From assembly GCA_944387035.1 (NCBI GenBank), contig CALXDJ010000002.1:1-64000 (forward strand): DNA of 64,000 bases, read 5' to 3'. Position 1 is the first letter of the stretch, and each line of letters starts with the position of its first letter. This stretch comes from an uncultured Oscillospiraceae bacterium (lineage in GTDB: Bacteria; Bacillota; Clostridia; Oscillospirales; Oscillospiraceae). The notes under the pieces are model-generated. The model had not been told where the DNA came from. It made no database searches and saw only the letters and a program-made list of their open reading frames with translations. The position numbers were made by a program, and so were the translations under genes. Of the stretch, positions 52,823 through 59,563 are shown in pieces.

Positions 52823-54247
52823 TCAGAGACTCTCGATGGCCGCCCGCAGGGTCTCAATGCTCATTCCCTTCTCGGAAGCGATCCGGACCAGATCTTCATA
52901 CTCCAGCTTGGACCGGGTCACGCCGTAGCCTGTGGAAACCTTTCTCCGCACAGTGCCGTAGGGTGTGGAGAGCGTTTCCAGAGTGCGGTCCAGCACATAG
53001 CGCCGGGCCATGGTCTCCCGGATCCCCAAGGTAGAGGTGTGACGGAACAGCAATTCCACCATGTGTTCCCGATCCTGCTCCCGGCACAGGACGCGAATCA
53101 GCGTACCGGGGCGGGATTTTTTCATTCCCACCGGGATGGTAAACACATCCAGGGCTCCCTGGGAGAGCAAGCTCTCCATGGCATAGCCGATCTGCTCAGC
53201 GGTCATGTCGTCCACATTGCAGGAAAGCTCCGTCACGGAATCGGTCCGGTCCTCGGAATCTCCCAGCATGGCCCGCACGCAGTTGGCCTGGGGGAAGTCC
53301 TTCTTGCCCATGCCGTAGCCAATGGCCCGGGTGCGCATAGCGGGCATGGAATCGAAGCGGGTCACAAAATGCTTGAGCAGCGCCGCACCTGTGGGGGTGC
53401 ACAGCTCACCCTGAATGCTGCCGCCATACACCGGCACTCCCTGGAGAATATACGCAGTGGCAGGCGCCGGCACAGGCAAAATCCCGTGGGCACAGCGAAC
53501 CTGTCCGCTGCCCACATGCACCGGGGAAGCCACCACCTCATCGGGCCCCAAACGATGCATCAGCAGGCACACCGCCGTGATATCCGCCACAGCGTCCATA
53601 GTCCCCACCTCATGGAAGTGGATCTGCTCCACCGGCACACCATGGGCATGGCTCTCCGCCTGGGCAATGAGACCATAGACCGCCAGCACATCCTCCCGCA
53701 CACGCTCCGGCAGATTCAGATGGTCCCGCACCAGATGGGCAATGTCCCCCAGGCTGGTGTGGCTGTGACCATGGGAGTGTTCGTGGTGATGCGTATGTCC
53801 ATGATCATGGTCGTGGTTGTGATCGTGCCCATGCTCGTGGTCGTGGTCATGGCCATGATCGTGCTCATGGCCATGGTCGTGCTCATGCTCGTGATCGTGG
53901 GTATGGTCGTGATCATGCTCATGGTCGTAATCGTGCTCATGCTCGTGATCGTGGGTATGGCCGTGATCATGCTCATGCTCGTGACTGTGCTCATGGAGCT
54001 CTGCGCCCTCGCTCCGGCCGCAGGCTACATCATGGCTTTCCTCTTCTTGGCCGTCCACACAGATGCGCAGATGCGTACCGGTGATTCCGCATTTGACAGC
54101 GCTCTCCCGCTCCGCCCGGACGCCGGGGATTCCCAGGGCGTTGAACTCCCGCAAAAACCCATCCGGGTCCGGCAGCAGCTCCAGCAATGCGGCAGCCAGC
54201 ATATCGCCGGCCGCACCCATTCCGCAGTCCAGATACAGTGTTTTCAT
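52823..54247 (-). CDS. larC: Nickel chelatase of the pincer-cofactor pathway
   Basis: 474 residues in a single unbroken frame, whereas some LarC genes are split into LarC1/LarC2 by a programmed frameshift. LarC inserts nickel into the thiolated pyridinium cofactor. Family blocks: MKTLYLDCGMGAAGDMLAAA at the start, EQIHFHEVGTMDAVADI, CTPTGAALLK, and LSCNVDDMTAEQIG. A His-rich insertion lies at about residues 85-163 (see repeat). It is the last gene of the metal operon, three bases after larB. LarA (lactate racemase) is not in the window. Confidence 0.95.
   Translation of the reverse strand: MKTLYLDCGMGAAGDMLAAALLELLPDPDGFLREFNALGIPGVRAERESAVKCGITGTHLRICVDGQEEESHDVACGRSEGAELHEHSHEHEHDHGHTHDHEHEHDYDHEHDHDHTHDHEHEHDHGHEHDHGHDHDHEHGHDHNHDHDHGHTHHHEHSHGHSHTSLGDIAHLVRDHLNLPERVREDVLAVYGLIAQAESHAHGVPVEQIHFHEVGTMDAVADITAVCLLMHRLGPDEVVASPVHVGSGQVRCAHGILPVPAPATAYILQGVPVYGGSIQGELCTPTGAALLKHFVTRFDSMPAMRTRAIGYGMGKKDFPQANCVRAMLGDSEDRTDSVTELSCNVDDMTAEQIGYAMESLLSQGALDVFTIPVGMKKSRPGTLIRVLCREQDREHMVELLFRHTSTLGIRETMARRYVLDRTLETLSTPYGTVRRKVSTGYGVTRSKLEYEDLVRIASEKGMSIETLRAAIESL
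53759..53995 (-). repeat. His-rich low-complexity insert of larC
   Basis: About 79 residues made mostly of H-D, H-E and H-G pairs with about 40 histidines, encoded by a degenerate CATGATCGTGG-like microsatellite. His-rich inserts in LarC and other nickel chaperones store or buffer Ni(II). The repetitive DNA is likely to vary in length between strains. Confidence 0.85.
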
Positions 54248-54250
54248 CCC

Positions 54251-55012
54251 TCAGCGCTCCTTTTTTCCATCCATATGGTTGATCATGCTGGCCAGATACC
54301 CGGCGCCGAAGCCGTTGTCGATGTTGACCACAGACACACCGCTGGCGCAGGAATTGAGCATGGAGAGCAGCGCGGACAAGCCGTGGAACGACGCGCCGTA
54401 GCCCACGCTGGTGGGCACAGCGATAACCGGGCAGTCAGCCAGTCCGCCGATGACACTGGCCAGCGCCCCCTCCATACCGGCGATGGCGATGATGACGCTG
54501 GCGGTCATGATCTCGTCCAGATGAGCCAGGGTCCGGTGCAAACCTGCCACCCCCACATCATAGAGCCGTACCACCTCATTGCCCAATACCTGGGCGGTGA
54601 GGGCCGCCTCCTCCGCCACCGGCACATCGCTGGTGCCGCCGGTAGTCACCACAATCTTGCCCAGACCGCTGGGCTGCGGCAGCGCTCCCAGTATGCCCAC
54701 CCGGGCCTCCGCGTGATACTCCATGGGATGAACTGCCGCCACAGCCTGTGCCGCCTCCGGGGACATCCGCGTGATGAGGATCGAGTCCTGCCCATTGTCC
54801 CGCATAACCTGCACAATCCCGCAGATCTGCTCCGGGGTCTTGCCCGCACCGTAGATCACTTCCGCAGCTCCCTGCCGAATCTTACGGTGCAGGTCCACCT
54901 TGGCATAACCGATGTCCTCAAAGGGCGCCCGCTTAACCTTGAGCAATGCCTCATCCACACTCATGTTCCCGGCGCTGACCGCCTCCAGAATCTGCTTAAT
55001 CTCGTTATTCAC
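54251..55012 (-). CDS. larB: Nicotinic-acid adenine dinucleotide carboxylase/hydrolase
   Basis: 253 residues. LarB carboxylates and hydrolyses NaAD as the first step of the nickel-pincer cofactor pathway. Recognised by VIYGAGKTPEQI, VTTGGTSDVPVAEEAA, DVGVAGLHRTL and the PurE-like AIAGMEGALASVIGGL and VPTSVGYGASFHG segments. Start GTG 55012, with GGAGG six bases before; it overlaps larE by eight bases. An in-frame start at 55129 is rejected. Confidence 0.95.
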   Translation of the reverse strand: MNNEIKQILEAVSAGNMSVDEALLKVKRAPFEDIGYAKVDLHRKIRQGAAEVIYGAGKTPEQICGIVQVMRDNGQDSILITRMSPEAAQAVAAVHPMEYHAEARVGILGALPQPSGLGKIVVTTGGTSDVPVAEEAALTAQVLGNEVVRLYDVGVAGLHRTLAHLDEIMTASVIIAIAGMEGALASVIGGLADCPVIAVPTSVGYGASFHGLSALLSMLNSCASGVSVVNIDNGFGAGYLASMINHMDGKKER

Positions 55013-55754
55013 CGCGCACCTCCAGATCCAGTACCATCGCACGGTAGTACGGTTTGAGTTTTTGGAGAATCTCTTCTCTGCGTTCCAGCACCAGTGCCAG
55101 CTGCTCCGGCCGGACCTGAATGCGGGCACAGCCGTCCAGCAGCCGCACCCGGAAATCGGAAAAGCCCAGAGCAGTCAGTTCCGCTTCGGCAGTTTCGGTG
55201 GCAGCCAGCTTTTCGGCCGTAATCACCTCACCGGTGGGAATCCGGGTTGCCAGACACGCATAGGCGGGCTTGTCCCAGGTAAACAGCCCCGCCTCCCGGG
55301 ACCGGGCGCGGATCTCCGCCTTGGTCAACCCGCACTCCCGCAGGGGAGACCGGACGGACAGCTCCCGCAGAGCCCGCATACCGGGACGGTCTCCGGCATC
55401 GTCGGAGGCGTTGGTGCCGTCTATCACCAAGTCAAAGCCGTCCGCGGCGGCAGCCTGCAAAATAGCGGAGAAAATTGCCCGCTTGCAGTGGTAGCAGCGC
55501 TGGGGCAGATTGGCGCAGACCTCCTCCCGGTCCAAAATGTCCAGAGGCAGCACCGTCATCTCCGCGCCCAGCTCCCGGACAAGGCGCAGAGCGTCCTCCC
55601 GCTCAAAGGCGGGCTGGAAGGCGGTCTGAACGTAATAGGCCCGAACCTGGGCACCGCACGCCCGGGCAGCGTAGAGCAGGTAGGCTGAGTCCACGCCTCC
55701 GGAAAAGGCCAGAGCCACCCGGGGATTCTCATGAAAAAAAGTTTCCAGCGTCAT
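55005..55754 (-). CDS. larE: Pyridinium-3,5-biscarboxylate sulfurtransferase
   Basis: 249 residues. PP-loop ATPase motif AFSGGVDSAYLL near the N-terminus activates the carboxylate. LarE then donates sulfur from a cysteine (sacrificial) or through an Fe-S cluster. Here cysteines lie in QRCYHCKRAIF and in KPAYACLATRIP, the second being the position used by sacrificial LarE. The cysteine number leaves either mechanism open. GGAGG before ATG 55754. A 58-base gap separates it from the FmdE gene. Confidence 0.94.
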   Translation of the reverse strand: MTLETFFHENPRVALAFSGGVDSAYLLYAARACGAQVRAYYVQTAFQPAFEREDALRLVRELGAEMTVLPLDILDREEVCANLPQRCYHCKRAIFSAILQAAAADGFDLVIDGTNASDDAGDRPGMRALRELSVRSPLRECGLTKAEIRARSREAGLFTWDKPAYACLATRIPTGEVITAEKLAATETAEAELTALGFSDFRVRLLDGCARIQVRPEQLALVLERREEILQKLKPYYRAMVLDLEVRGE

Positions 55755-55812: not shown

Positions 55813-56334
55813 TCATACCCGGAAGCGGTCATAGGCCGGATAGCAGTCGGGGCAAAGGGGTTTCCCATTGTGCATCCGAACCCAGTTGGCACCGGTGCGC
55901 TCCCCGCAGCCGGCGCAGATGTAGGAATCAAAGAGCCGCGCCCGTTCCGGCAGGGCGATGCGGGTGGGCTTGACGTCAAAGAGCTCCTCCGGCTCCCGGC
56001 TCTGATAGTACTGGAAGGACTCCTCCCGGTTCATCTCTCCGGGCTTATCCCGAAGCACCAGCCGCACAGACTTGCCGGTGCCGCGATGATAAAAGGAAAA
56101 TGCCTGCTTGCCGGTCATGTGGAACAGGAGATTTCCCTTTCCAATGCTGCATCCCAGCAGCACCTGAATGGCGTCTACGCCGCAGGCATCGTTTTCGCTG
56201 ATGCACACGGTCTCCTCATCAGTGCACTCCGGAAGATCCAGCAGCCGCGCGGCATACTGGGCAGCCTTATAGCCGATGGTCAGTCCGCCGCAGGCGTGGC
56301 CGTGGAAGGCCACGCATTTTTCCCAATCCGTCAT
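55813..56334 (-). CDS. FmdE-family metal-associated protein
   Basis: 173 residues. The first 120 residues show the FmdE core: CVAFHGHACGGLTIGYKAA and SENDACGVDAIQVLLGCSIG, with conserved His and Cys that can bind a metal. The last part is a zinc-ribbon: ICAGCGERTGANW and LCPDCYPAY (four Cys). FmdE relatives occur with molybdenum/tungsten enzymes and with metal importers. It stands between the importer and larEBC on one transcript, so delivery or sensing of the transported metal is a reasonable guess. Confidence 0.85.
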   Translation of the reverse strand: MTDWEKCVAFHGHACGGLTIGYKAAQYAARLLDLPECTDEETVCISENDACGVDAIQVLLGCSIGKGNLLFHMTGKQAFSFYHRGTGKSVRLVLRDKPGEMNREESFQYYQSREPEELFDVKPTRIALPERARLFDSYICAGCGERTGANWVRMHNGKPLCPDCYPAYDRFRV

Positions 56335-56349
56335 AAACTTACTCCTTCG

Positions 56350-57099
56350 TTATTCGATAATCACAATCCGCCGGCCGCCTACATCCATGACTTTGGCGCA
56401 CACGCCGTAAACAGATTCAATGGTATGTTGATCCACCACTTCCAGCCCGCCGTAGCGATATCCGCTGCCATCCTTGAGGAAGAAGAAACGGTCGCAGTAG
56501 CGCAAGGCCAGATTCAGATCGTGGATGACGATCAGCACCGTGATGTGCTGTTCCCGGGCCACTTCCCGGACCAGTTCCATCATCTCGTACTGATTCCGGG
56601 GGTCCAGATTGCTGGTGGGCTCATCCAGCAGCAGCACTTTGGGTCTCTGCACCAGGGCCCGGGCCAGCATCACCTTTTGCAGCTCACCGCCGGAGAGCTC
56701 ATCCAGACTGCGCAGCTCCAGGGCCTCCAGCCCCACCCGGTGGATCATGGCGGTGCACAGCCGCAGGTCCTCTTCCCCCACGGCCCAGCGGATATAGGGC
56801 TTGCGCCCCAGCAGCACGCAGTCAAAGACGGTGGTCTGGCTCATCTCGTTTTTCTGGGCCACATATGCCACGCTCCGCGCCAGTTCCCGGCGGGACATAT
56901 TCCCCACGGCCTTGCCGTCAATGAGGACGCTGCCGCTGTCCGGGGTGCGGATGCGATTGATGCAGGTGATGAGGGTGCTCTTTCCGGCACCGTTATTGCC
57001 CAGAATCCCCACGCACTCGCCGCTCTGGGCGGTAAATCCCACATGGGAGAGCACCGGATGATGCCCATAGGAAAAAGACAGATTCTGTACTTCGATCAT
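56350..57099 (-). CDS. FecE/BtuD-type ABC transporter ATP-binding protein
   Basis: 249 residues. Walker A GNNGAGKSTL, signature LSGGELQKVMLARAL, Walker B VLLLDEPTSNLD, H-loop VIHDL. These serve metal-chelate importers (iron siderophore, cobalamin, molybdate or nickel chelates). The start overlaps the permease stop by four bases. Confidence 0.93.
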   Translation of the reverse strand: MIEVQNLSFSYGHHPVLSHVGFTAQSGECVGILGNNGAGKSTLITCINRIRTPDSGSVLIDGKAVGNMSRRELARSVAYVAQKNEMSQTTVFDCVLLGRKPYIRWAVGEEDLRLCTAMIHRVGLEALELRSLDELSGGELQKVMLARALVQRPKVLLLDEPTSNLDPRNQYEMMELVREVAREQHITVLIVIHDLNLALRYCDRFFFLKDGSGYRYGGLEVVDQHTIESVYGVCAKVMDVGGRRIVIIE

Positions 57100-58175
57100 T
57101 TGACACTCCCCCGTTTCATGATGAGATACAAAAACAGCGGCGCACCCAGGAAGGACGTCAGAGCGCCGATGGGCAGCACCACCGGCGGGATCAATACCCG
57201 GCAGGCAATGTCGGAAGCCAGCAGCAGCACAGCGCCCGCCATAGCGGAGCAGGGAATGAGAAAACGGTAATCATTGCCCACAAACACCCGCATGATATGG
57301 GGTGCAATGAGGCCGATGAAGCTGATGCAGCCCACAAAGGCCACAGAGACAGAGGCGATCAGGGCGCACACAGCCATGCTGGCCGGAATCAAGAACTCCA
57401 CCGGCACCCCCAGACTCCGTGCAGTGTGGATGCCGCTTTCCATGGCATTGTAGTTCCAGCGGTGGAAGAGGAAAAAGGCCAAAGCCAGCAGGCACAGCAG
57501 ACCGATGAGGGCGATCTCCTGCCAGCCGGCCCGCCCCAGGCTGCCGAAGGTCCAGTACACCACGGTGGCCACCATGACGTCGTCGGCGAAGTATTGTACC
57601 AGGGTAGTGCCTCCGGTAAACATGGAGCTGATGGCCACACCGACCAGCACCATGGTGGAGGGGGTAACGCCCCGAACGCGGGAGAGGGCCAGAATCAGCA
57701 CCGTGGTAGCCATACCGCCTAAAAACGCACAGGCGGTAACCAGATAGGGGTTGGAAATGGTCAGGGCGGCGGAAGAACCGCCGGAATTGATTTGGCTGCC
57801 TGCCCCCAAACAGATAATCGCCACAGCGGCGCCGAAGGACGCTCCTTGGGAGACGCCCAGAGTGGAGGCGGAAGCCAATGGATTGCGCAGGACATTCTGC
57901 ATCACACACCCGGACATGGCCAGAGCCGCACCCACCACCACAGCAGCGGCAATGCGCGGCATCCGGACATTCCAGATGATGGTCAGGGTCTCCCGGCTGC
58001 CATATCCAACCAGAGCCCCCAGAATCTGTCCCAAGCTCAGGCCAGCGGAGCCTGCCGCCAGAGATGCCAGGCAGGCCAGGGCCATGACCGCGGCGCAAAT
58101 CGCCACAAAGCCCCATTTTCGCCGGACATACTGCCGGTAAGGTGCGGAAAGCTCCGCCAGCTGGTCTTTTTTCAT
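57096..58175 (-). CDS. FecCD/BtuC-type ABC transporter permease
   Basis: 359 residues, about ten membrane helices. Family blocks: VRMPRIAAAVVVGAALAMSG, NPLASASTLGVSQGASFGAA and GCISFIGLIAPHIMRV. It forms the membrane channel of the metal-chelate importer. The start is four bases after the binding-protein stop. Confidence 0.93.
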   Translation of the reverse strand: MKKDQLAELSAPYRQYVRRKWGFVAICAAVMALACLASLAAGSAGLSLGQILGALVGYGSRETLTIIWNVRMPRIAAAVVVGAALAMSGCVMQNVLRNPLASASTLGVSQGASFGAAVAIICLGAGSQINSGGSSAALTISNPYLVTACAFLGGMATTVLILALSRVRGVTPSTMVLVGVAISSMFTGGTTLVQYFADDVMVATVVYWTFGSLGRAGWQEIALIGLLCLLALAFFLFHRWNYNAMESGIHTARSLGVPVEFLIPASMAVCALIASVSVAFVGCISFIGLIAPHIMRVFVGNDYRFLIPCSAMAGAVLLLASDIACRVLIPPVVLPIGALTSFLGAPLFLYLIMKRGSVK

Positions 58176-58179
58176 GGAT

Positions 58180-59358
58180 TCATTCCCCTATCGTAATGGT
58201 TCCGTAGTAAAGGCCTCCATCCTCCATCTGGTCAAAGAAATCTTGTCCCAGCATGGCCTCCATGATCTCACCGCCCTTTTCCCGGATATCCACATCAGCA
58301 AAGCGGTCGGGATAAAGCACGATTCCCGCGTAATAGGCATTGATGAGCAGATAGGTGATGTTGGGGCCGGCGGAGTTGGAGGAAGGCATGGTATAAACCT
58401 GTCCCTCCTGAACGGCTCGGAGGGAGTCAAAGAAACCGGGATTGCTGCGGTACTCGTCGTTAACCAAGTCCATGTTGCTGGGGTCCAGGAAGATGATATC
58501 GGGGTCCCACTGGAGGATCTGCTCCAGATCTACTTCAAAGCCGTTCTGACCCACATAGGCGGTGCCGGACTCCTGAGCGGTCTGGAGCGCTTCGCCGGTG
58601 ACACTCTCCAAAAACTCATCGGCCACATTGTTGGCGTGGACCGCCAAAAACGGCGGGAAGTTCACATAGGTAAAGGGGAAGCCGTGACGGCCGTTGAAGG
58701 TGACGGCGCCGGTGTAAACCGCGGGCTTATTTTCCTCGGGTACATCTCCGGTGCGCTGCTCCAGATCCGCCTTGCACGCATCGATGAAGGAGAGCACCTC
58801 CTCACAGCGCTCCTGGGCACCCACCACATCGGCAAACAGCCGCAGTGTCTCATAGAAGCCCTCGTCGATGAAGGCCTGGGTGCGATAGCGGACGCTGACC
58901 ACCGGAATACCGGTCTGGCGCTGGAGCTCGTCGGCAGCCTCGGCGGAAAAACCTGCCAGGATGACGTCGGGATTGGCCTGGATAATCTGCTCGGGATAGC
59001 CGTTGTTCTCGCCGCTGCCGCCGCCGGCCCCCACGGAAGGCAGCTGTGCCAGCTGGTCGTGATAGACGGGGCTGTAGTCATAGCGGACGGACATGGCTTC
59101 AATATCCATATCCTCCGCGCCCACCATCATATCCACCACGTCCAGATAGGCGGCAAAGCGGGGGGCCATGGATCCCAAACACACAATGGATTCCACCTGG
59201 GCGGGAATCTCCACCTCCCGGTTCCATACATCCGTGACAATCCGGGTCTCAGCAGCACTGGAATCGGTTTCCGCATCCTGGGATTGGGGCGCGGCACCGC
59301 AGGCGGCGAGGCCAAGCAGCAGTGCCGCAGCGGTCAGCAAAGTCAGAAGTCGTTTCAT
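58180..59358 (-). CDS. Metal-chelate ABC transporter binding lipoprotein (FecB/BtuF fold)
   Basis: 392 residues. Lipoprotein signal (LLLGLAAC, Cys at about 20). Then the helical-backbone binding fold: VESIVCLGSMAPRFAAYL, QIIQANPDVILAG, QWDPDIIFLDP. The ligand cannot be read directly. Being the first gene of an operon ending in larEBC makes nickel or a nickel chelate the simplest candidate, with molybdate/tungstate or iron as alternatives. AAAGG upstream of ATG 59358. Transcript control by the leader at 59359-59528 is likely. Confidence 0.88.
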   Translation of the reverse strand: MKRLLTLLTAAALLLGLAACGAAPQSQDAETDSSAAETRIVTDVWNREVEIPAQVESIVCLGSMAPRFAAYLDVVDMMVGAEDMDIEAMSVRYDYSPVYHDQLAQLPSVGAGGGSGENNGYPEQIIQANPDVILAGFSAEAADELQRQTGIPVVSVRYRTQAFIDEGFYETLRLFADVVGAQERCEEVLSFIDACKADLEQRTGDVPEENKPAVYTGAVTFNGRHGFPFTYVNFPPFLAVHANNVADEFLESVTGEALQTAQESGTAYVGQNGFEVDLEQILQWDPDIIFLDPSNMDLVNDEYRSNPGFFDSLRAVQEGQVYTMPSSNSAGPNITYLLINAYYAGIVLYPDRFADVDIREKGGEIMEAMLGQDFFDQMEDGGLYYGTITIGE

Positions 59359-59528
59359 TTCAGCATTCCTTTCTCATGTCGCAGTAAGCGCATCCCCCTT
59401 GACAAACAAAAAAAGCATACGGCCTTCCCTGTGGAAAGGTCGTATGCCTTGGACATACTGGTTTGTGCGGGGGCTTGCAGGATGGGGCAGGAAGCTTCGG
59501 CTTCCGATGTTTGCTTGGTACAAACGTT
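59359..59528 (-). promoter_or_regulatory. Candidate riboswitch leader of the fec-fmdE-lar operon
   Basis: About 170 nt of leader RNA (minus strand). P1: GUUUGU (59520-59525) pairs with ACAAAC (59461-59466) and closes a domain of about 65 nt. P2: GGAAGC-CGAA-GCUUCC (59490-59505), a GNRA-like tetraloop hairpin. Between P2 and P1 lies a C-rich strand with no clear helix. An antiterminator hairpin GUAUGUCC/GGCAUAC (59442-59458) is mutually exclusive with the terminator at 59415-59447. This is the layout of a transcription-terminating riboswitch. I do not recognise the class; it is not an evident cobalamin, NiCo or Moco consensus. Confidence 0.6.
59405..59447 (-). terminator. Leader terminator (attenuator) of the metal operon
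   Basis: On the minus strand, GCATACGACCTTTCC and GGAAGGCCGTATGC form a hairpin (59415-59447) with loop ACAG, followed by seven T (59408-59414). It lies 56 bases before the first gene, so it would stop transcription before the operon unless the antiterminator forms. Confidence 0.85.
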
Positions 59529-59534
59529 TTTTTC

Positions 59535-59563
59535 ATTATACAAATTTTTCCCTTCCCTGTCAA
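59535..59563 (-). promoter_or_regulatory. Consensus sigma-A promoter of the metal operon
   Basis: TTGACA (59558-59563), 17-base spacer, TATAAT (59535-59540): both boxes match consensus perfectly. Transcription should start near 59528. Such a strong constitutive promoter followed by a leader terminator implies that control is exerted mostly at the RNA level. Confidence 0.9.

Follow-up and report, generated by a model that had tools for sequence, protein, structure and literature searches.

What decides whether the metal importer and the lar genes of this locus are read? In the window, by which we mean the whole analysed stretch of 64,000 nucleotides, these genes lie on the minus strand behind a promoter and a leader RNA that the original prediction took for a candidate orphan riboswitch. 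Here, we found that the leader is real, that it resembles a divergent member of a family of RNAs absent from Rfam, and that it probably decides whether nickel-related genes are read.

Anatomy of the leader and its operon

The FecBCD-FmdE-LarEBC operon that had been proposed does follow the leader, with Pfam and NCBIfam matches giving the order fecB-fecCD-fecE-fmdE-larE-larB-larC. The elements of the leader and the genes behind it are as follows (G237 is the closest relative, described below).

59535..59563, minus strand: promoter TTGACA-17-TATAAT, 12 of 12 consensus positions
59509..59525, minus strand: P1 hairpin GUUUGU-ACCAA-GCAAAC, 6 bp with a pentaloop; from folding, the G237 counterpart and helix covariation in 21 rows
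59506..59508, minus strand: P1-P2 spacer of 3 nt, identical spacing in 21 of 21 alignment rows
59490..59505, minus strand: P2 hairpin GGAAGC-CGAA-GCUUCC, 6 bp with an NGAA tetraloop; from folding and covariation
59459..59489, minus strand: C-rich linker of 31 nt, containing CCCCCGCAC at 59473-59465
59442..59458, minus strand: P4 antiterminator hairpin GUAUGUC-CAA-GGCAUAC; from pair probability in folding and helix covariation in 38 rows
59408..59450, minus strand: intrinsic terminator using the 3' arm of P4, with a U7 tract at 59414-59408; from folding
58180..59358, minus strand: fecB-like substrate-binding protein (PF01497)
57096..58175, minus strand: FecCD permease (PF01032)
56350..57099, minus strand: FecE-like ATPase (PF00005)
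55813..56334, minus strand: FmdE-domain protein (PF02663)
55005..55754, minus strand: larE (TIGR00268, 243.1 bits, cut-off 150; start read from the sequence)
54251..55012, minus strand: larB (NF033503, 285.7 bits, cut-off 175; start read from the sequence)
52823..54247, minus strand: larC with a long His/Asp-rich insert (PF01969, TIGR00299, NF052512)

The promoter, which had been called perfect, is present at 59563-59535 of the minus strand, and shuffles of the leader region held promoter-like sites at a mean of 0.2. The P2 tetraloop hairpin claimed earlier forms in folds as GGAAGC-CGAA-GCUUCC, and the C-rich joining strand is likewise present in the window, its C-rich element recurring in many relatives. 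Folding of the window leader was more stable than that of 200 out of 200 dinucleotide shuffles (z -3.33). A pattern of P1 (6 bp, A..AA loop), 3 nt and P2 (6 bp,.GAA loop), composed after inspection of the sequence, occurred once in the window when both strands were scanned, and in none of 20,000 leader shuffles.

The predicted exclusion between antiterminator and terminator was also borne out in folding models: the GUAUGUC/GGCAUAC hairpin shares its 3' arm with the terminator hairpin, after which seven U follow. The median pair probability of P4 was 0.93 in the RNA ending at P4 and 0.0 in the full leader, where the terminator takes the P4 arm with a probability of 0.99. The window leader thus carries a P4 that is exclusive with the terminator and stands before metal-import and lar genes. 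A simple terminator scan did not return the window terminator, which we ascribe to an internal mismatch in its stem; the folding programs do form it.

The original prediction could not match the leader to a known class, and neither could Rfam. In a comparison with 4227 Rfam families at the gathering score, neither the whole window nor a set of 20 loci gave any match, and a set of 12 loci gave one tRNA only; the families compared included the Moco, NiCo, cobalamin, THF and T-box classes. Permissive matches of the window leader were weak and unrelated, and we took them as noise.

The insert of larC (window positions 53740-54010, minus strand) is very long and His/Asp-rich with DHEH-type repeats; to judge from these residues, it likely binds metal.

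Relatives of the leader and conservation of its hairpins

The fecB search across 300 genomes of the window's family returned 41 with a match at E <= 1e-40, the window's own included. Stretches before fecB were inspected at 30 of the 41 loci. Apart from the window's, a leader of this kind stands there in one genome alone, G237 (Flavonifractor sp. An100), where an operon of the same gene order follows. Its P1 lies in the same place with the loop AGGAA, its P2 is non-canonical, and its P4, GUAUGUC-AAAA-GGCAUAC, stands over a terminator of the same kind as the window's. The local hairpin GUUUGU-A(CC/GG)AA-GCAAAC is kept between the two, and the P1 pattern GTTTGTANNAAGCAAAC is found in only 2 of the 300 family genomes, again the window's and G237. 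The original prediction had drawn P1 as a long-range helix, GUUUGU/ACAAAC. This helix is not conserved, and we rejected it, since ACAAAC is missing in G237, the closest homologue, while the local P1 hairpin stays. We also discarded an exact 19-nt pattern: it occurs in 29 stretches of the genome collection, by our arithmetic about what uniform bases would give, and among the 5 of these 29 stretches that were inspected Flavonifractor sp. An100 was the sole homologue.

More members came from the lar genes. The larE search gave a match at E <= 1e-40 in 151 of the 300 family genomes. Upstream of larE, 28 stretches were read by eye and yielded 9 leaders (two of the 28, L077 and L089, are not true upstream regions, the contig ending there), and 60 further stretches were screened by script, with 10 inspected and 9 leaders found. 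The upstream stretches of G145, G066 and G202 have hairpins and a terminator without P4 and were excluded from the count. Together with the window, G237, G050 and two genomes of one genus with the order larE-larB-larC-fmdE-fecB-fecCD-fecE and the leader before larE (G210, G082), this makes 23 members.

A first covariance model, restricted to P1-P2 and built from 13 seeds, was run on the 300 family genomes, 86 of which had a match at E <= 0.3. Twenty of its places were inspected and gave 12 members and 8 chance matches, and 20 weaker ones gave 2 members (G123, G050), the rows of lower rank being inspected only in these two sets. The model does not use gene context or the P4/terminator part, which are therefore an independent check on members. 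At E <= 0.01 it returned 29 rows, 23 context-supported and 6 not; 18 of the 29 were neither seeds nor near-copies, and 12 of these 18 were supported. Among the non-seed rows at E <= 0.001, 6 of 7 were supported, one of the six (G144) being cut after P2. A second model, with 21 seeds, was run on two sets of 255 genomes, one taken from the order and the other from the class; 26 loci were inspected and gave 10 members, and five more rows had no locus.

Judged on anatomy and on the genes around them, the members number 46 in total. The window's own family holds 36, the remaining families of its order hold 9, and 1 comes from elsewhere in the class. Four of the 46 are weak or cut: G144 ends at a contig end after P2, G247 has a non-canonical P2 and P4, and G501 and G333 have P4 and a terminator before larE with no promoter beside P1, so that the P1-P2 match in these two may be due to chance.

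The window copy is itself divergent, with the P1 loop ACCAA and the P4 loop CAA. It has the geometry of the ANGAA/NGAA-loop leaders, P1 and P2 lying about 3 nt apart, but with this ACCAA loop it scores only 18.4 bits (E 0.029, for the window) against a covariance model that it helped to seed, and the genome scans at their cut-offs returned neither the window leader nor that of G237. Its membership rests not on the score but on its anatomy and geometry, its gene content, its gene-order relatives, P4 with the terminator, and the canonical P1 loop of G237.

Across the family the typical layout is P1 and P2 3 nt apart, a linker, and P4 with a 3' arm that doubles as the terminator 5' arm. Most loops of P1 and P4 read ANGAA or AGAA, most of those of P2 read NGAA or CAGA, and they usually carry AA before the closing G. 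In the 21-row P1/P2 alignment, from which members with another P1-P2 spacing were excluded, 95.5% of cells are paired and the covariation is 0.839 against 0.194 in shuffled rows, with 0 of 500 shuffles as high and values of 0.06-0.20 when partners are slid. The number of pairs changed on both sides, a weaker measure than the score, was reached by 126 of 500 shuffles. For P4, in 38 rows, 86.4% of cells are paired and the covariation is 0.528 against 0.344 (0 of 500 shuffles as high; 25 of 500 reaching the number of pairs changed on both sides); sliding the partners gave 0.03-0.27, a slide of +2 still pairing 54.5% of cells. Part of this covariation is due to selection, as alignment and seed rows were picked for their hairpin look. 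Covariation across homologues thus supports the local P1, P2 and P4, but not the long-range P1.

The linker measures 19-114 nt (median 43, 44 members) and is rich in C runs and U runs. Of 44 linkers, 36 contain CCC (22.5 on average and at most 29 after shuffling) and 9 contain CCCCGC (1.3 on average and at most 5 after shuffling). An 8-nt motif CCCcGCRY scored 39.7 in 39 linkers, where 8 sets of shuffled linkers gave 18.7 (sd 1.9). The motif or the C run is missing in several members.

In the thermodynamic model P4 forms in 34 of 44 leaders when the RNA ends at P4, and in the full leader the terminator captures the P4 3' arm in 41 of 44, both states holding in 31. The three terminator exceptions (G093, G465, G701) have no T tract that we could find, and 10 of the 44 leaders do not favour P4 even when the RNA ends there.

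When the leaders of genus g23 (L109, L114, L116, L119) are folded, P1 and P2 lie inside an extra long-range helix, for example ACACUGGG/CCCGGUGU.

Genes behind the leaders

Lar genes or importers of the Fec, Nik or CbiM type follow 35 of the 46 members. The first gene is larE in 23, and the fec-fmdE-lar arrangement comes first in 2 (the window and G237). FecCD is first, with no lar seen, in 2 (G065, G313; PF01032), CbiM in 1 (G475; PF01891 plus PDGLE), and a family-5 binding protein in 4 (G222, G106, G172, G387), of which G106 continues with ABC genes and then larEBC. A pair of small membrane proteins precedes the lar genes in 3 (G197, G495, G465), and an ECF S component is first in 9 (G275, G014, G091, G068, G058, G123, G511, G531, G701). 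One first gene has no Pfam or NCBIfam family (G093) and one is cut (G144).

The gene orders vary, with the leader in front. Besides fec-fmdE-lar in the window and G237, we found lar-fmdE-fec (G045, G210, G082, G115, G214), lar followed by Nik-type ABC genes (G200, G182, G022, G284, G143, G246, G074, G250), and Nik-type genes followed by lar (G106). Eight of the larE-first loci continue after larC with a binding protein of family 5 and with ABC genes; three of these binding proteins were scanned (L193, L194, L199), and their best NCBIfam model was nickel_nikA, at 159-161 bits where the cut-off is 393. For the nik-first binding proteins scanned (L209, L233) Opp4A ranked slightly above the nickel models. 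The nickel_nikA scores of these binding proteins are about 127-167 bits overall, below the cut-off of 393, and we call them "Nik-type" as a likely name, judged by sequence likeness. The FecCD proteins match BtuC best, below its cut-off, and CbiM is a cobalt-type family; cobalt or cobalamin may be the signal for the FecCD and CbiM members. As a whole, the regulon reads as nickel-type uptake plus synthesis of the nickel-pincer nucleotide (NPN). The family offers a way into the nickel homeostasis of Flavonifractor and related bacteria, and it predicts which importers of the Fec, Nik and ECF types may have a part in nickel metabolism.

The ECF S assignment rests on PF12822 in the four of nine proteins that were scanned and on similarity in the rest. 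The folate-family model lies below its cut-off, and a sequence comparison with solved structures gave no relatives but one weak, unrelated match. An alignment of eight of the nine conserves P(M/I)H and LCG, motifs that do not identify the substrate. Five ECF S genomes (G275, G014, G091, G068, G058) gave no larE match at E <= 1e-40, and LarA is above its cut-off in 2 of these 5, namely G275 and G014. LarA (PF09861) was rejected as a co-marker; several genomes without a confirmed motif carry it too.

Orphan ECF S components are seen under this RNA at L167, L177, L179, L181, L184, L218, L232, L248 and L258. In three families the small membrane protein pair separates the RNA from the lar genes (L178, L210, L231, L241); the two proteins scanned, those of L178, matched no Pfam or NCBIfam family. 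The pair is perhaps a nickel transporter.

Antitermination and rival explanations

Our preferred reading, which we hold with even confidence, is transcription antitermination by a loop-recognising factor that answers nickel or NPN supply. P1 and P2 would fold first. P4 would then fold during transcription and block the terminator, as both need the same strand; an unstabilised P4 would be displaced by the stronger terminator, and transcription would stop before fecB. A trans-acting factor would recognise the loops of P1, P2 and P4 (ANGAA/AGAA, NGAA) and hold P4 when nickel or NPN is scarce, so that the polymerase reads through. This direction is proposed because it is the economical one for importers and cofactor synthesis. 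What is established is that hairpins and loops are conserved, that P4 and the terminator exclude each other when folding is modelled, and which genes the leaders precede; we infer the binding of a factor, its protein nature, the nickel or NPN signal and the direction of the response.

A loop-recognising factor suits the leader, since the loops of its three hairpins are alike and the length of the linker varies widely. Factor-held antitermination is familiar from the BglG/LicT RAT, a single imperfect hairpin that is stabilised by a factor and overlaps a terminator. The likeness lies in the hairpin overlapping the terminator; here, however, P1, P2 and P4 all carry similar small loops. No protein factor for the leader was found in this analysis.

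The rival that survives best is a riboswitch made of RNA only, in which Ni2+ (or Co2+), NPN or something related would sit in a pocket built from P1, P2, P4 and the C-rich linker, and the bound ligand would set P4 against the terminator. A regulon of metal and cofactor genes fits it, and the CCCCGC element fits too, as the linker C-run motif could belong to an aptamer. It also draws support from members in three genomes that are at least 92% complete and have no ANTAR match, and from the fact that no protein factor was identified. However, the linker ranges over 19-114 nt and several members lack the C run, no conserved multi-stem junction was seen, and an aptamer does not usually have three similar loops. 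We regard this reading as possible, with a chance that falls short of even. The loop-binding factor seems preferable to us because the look-alike loops, one of them on the antiterminator itself, resemble factor-held antiterminator systems. Of the original prediction, the attenuation leader tied to metal-import and lar genes stands, while "riboswitch" is at most a candidate name, since the most conserved features, the three look-alike loops, point at least equally to a binding factor. The family thus poses a clean question, a loop-binding factor versus a direct ligand.

Known riboswitches offer partial parallels. The NiCo (czcD) riboswitch is also a metal-related leader RNA, but it controls exporters, whereas importers and NPN synthesis lie behind the present leader, which has no Rfam match to it. 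The Moco, cobalamin and THF riboswitches share the cofactor or transport context, again without an Rfam match, and one target, the ECF S component, bears a weak likeness to the folate family. Direct sensing of NPN (or RNA-bound Ni2+) by a riboswitch class that controls cofactor synthesis and metal import, with the ECF S component as an additional target, seems doubtful to us; if it were true, the ECF S target would import the cofactor or a precursor. A search of titles and the openings of abstracts found no such leader and no published RNA-level control of NPN synthesis; an earlier description may exist outside these papers.

In architecture, the closest system is that of the ANTAR-domain antiterminator proteins, which bind two small hairpins, the second overlapping the terminator. 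The dual-hairpin targets of EutV, NasR and AmiR resemble the leader in their small look-alike hairpins, short spacing between two of them, and a last hairpin overlapping the terminator, as P4 does in 41 of 44 leaders; ANTAR proteins are also found in 32 of 38 motif-bearing genomes against 11 of 22 others. According to PMC3369931, ANTAR-target RNAs, which are alike in general architecture, consist of two hairpins whose loops have six nucleotides, the first being A and the fourth G. The leader loops are instead ANGAA/NGAA rather than such hexaloops, a third hairpin follows 19-114 nt downstream, the genes behind the leader are metal and lar genes, and six motif-bearing genomes have no ANTAR match, including G197 (100% complete), G531 (97%) and G701 (92%). 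We thus consider ANTAR proteins an unlikely factor here, and give this explanation a very small probability.

Even less probable is an unregulated attenuator or insulator, that is, a terminator hairpin with chance upstream pairings. The covariation, the recurrence of similar loops across P1, P2 and P4, and the narrow range of genes behind the leaders speak against it. Leader-peptide attenuation, through a short frame that in the window runs from the AUG in GUAUGUCC, inside P4, to a stop overlapping the fecB ATG, is the least probable of all and was rejected as not conserved, for no ribosome site was seen by eye, the frame differs in G237 and many P4 rows lack the AUG.

Other features were seen near the fec and lar loci. 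The fecB gene of G227 has a different long leader (L029:1200-1500), which carries a promoter and a strong hairpin with U after it; no Rfam match was found for this leader. Many fecB relatives without the RNA leader have an operator-like palindrome, ATCCCCC(n)GGGG..CTTGC, which appears to overlap the -35 box (L009, L013, L015, L017, L019, L020, L021, L022, L024, L025, L027, L031). The pattern was matched at 13 of 30 fecB-upstream loci (in L014 the listed match is another site), where its density in the window would predict about 0.04 per stretch; as a sequence motif it suggests a DNA-binding regulator of the same transporters. Finally, a small protein gene adjoins lar or fec operons in several genera (L064, L065, L130/L202, L120, L140, L029); its cluster comprises 7 loci, and the protein is probably DUF3842.
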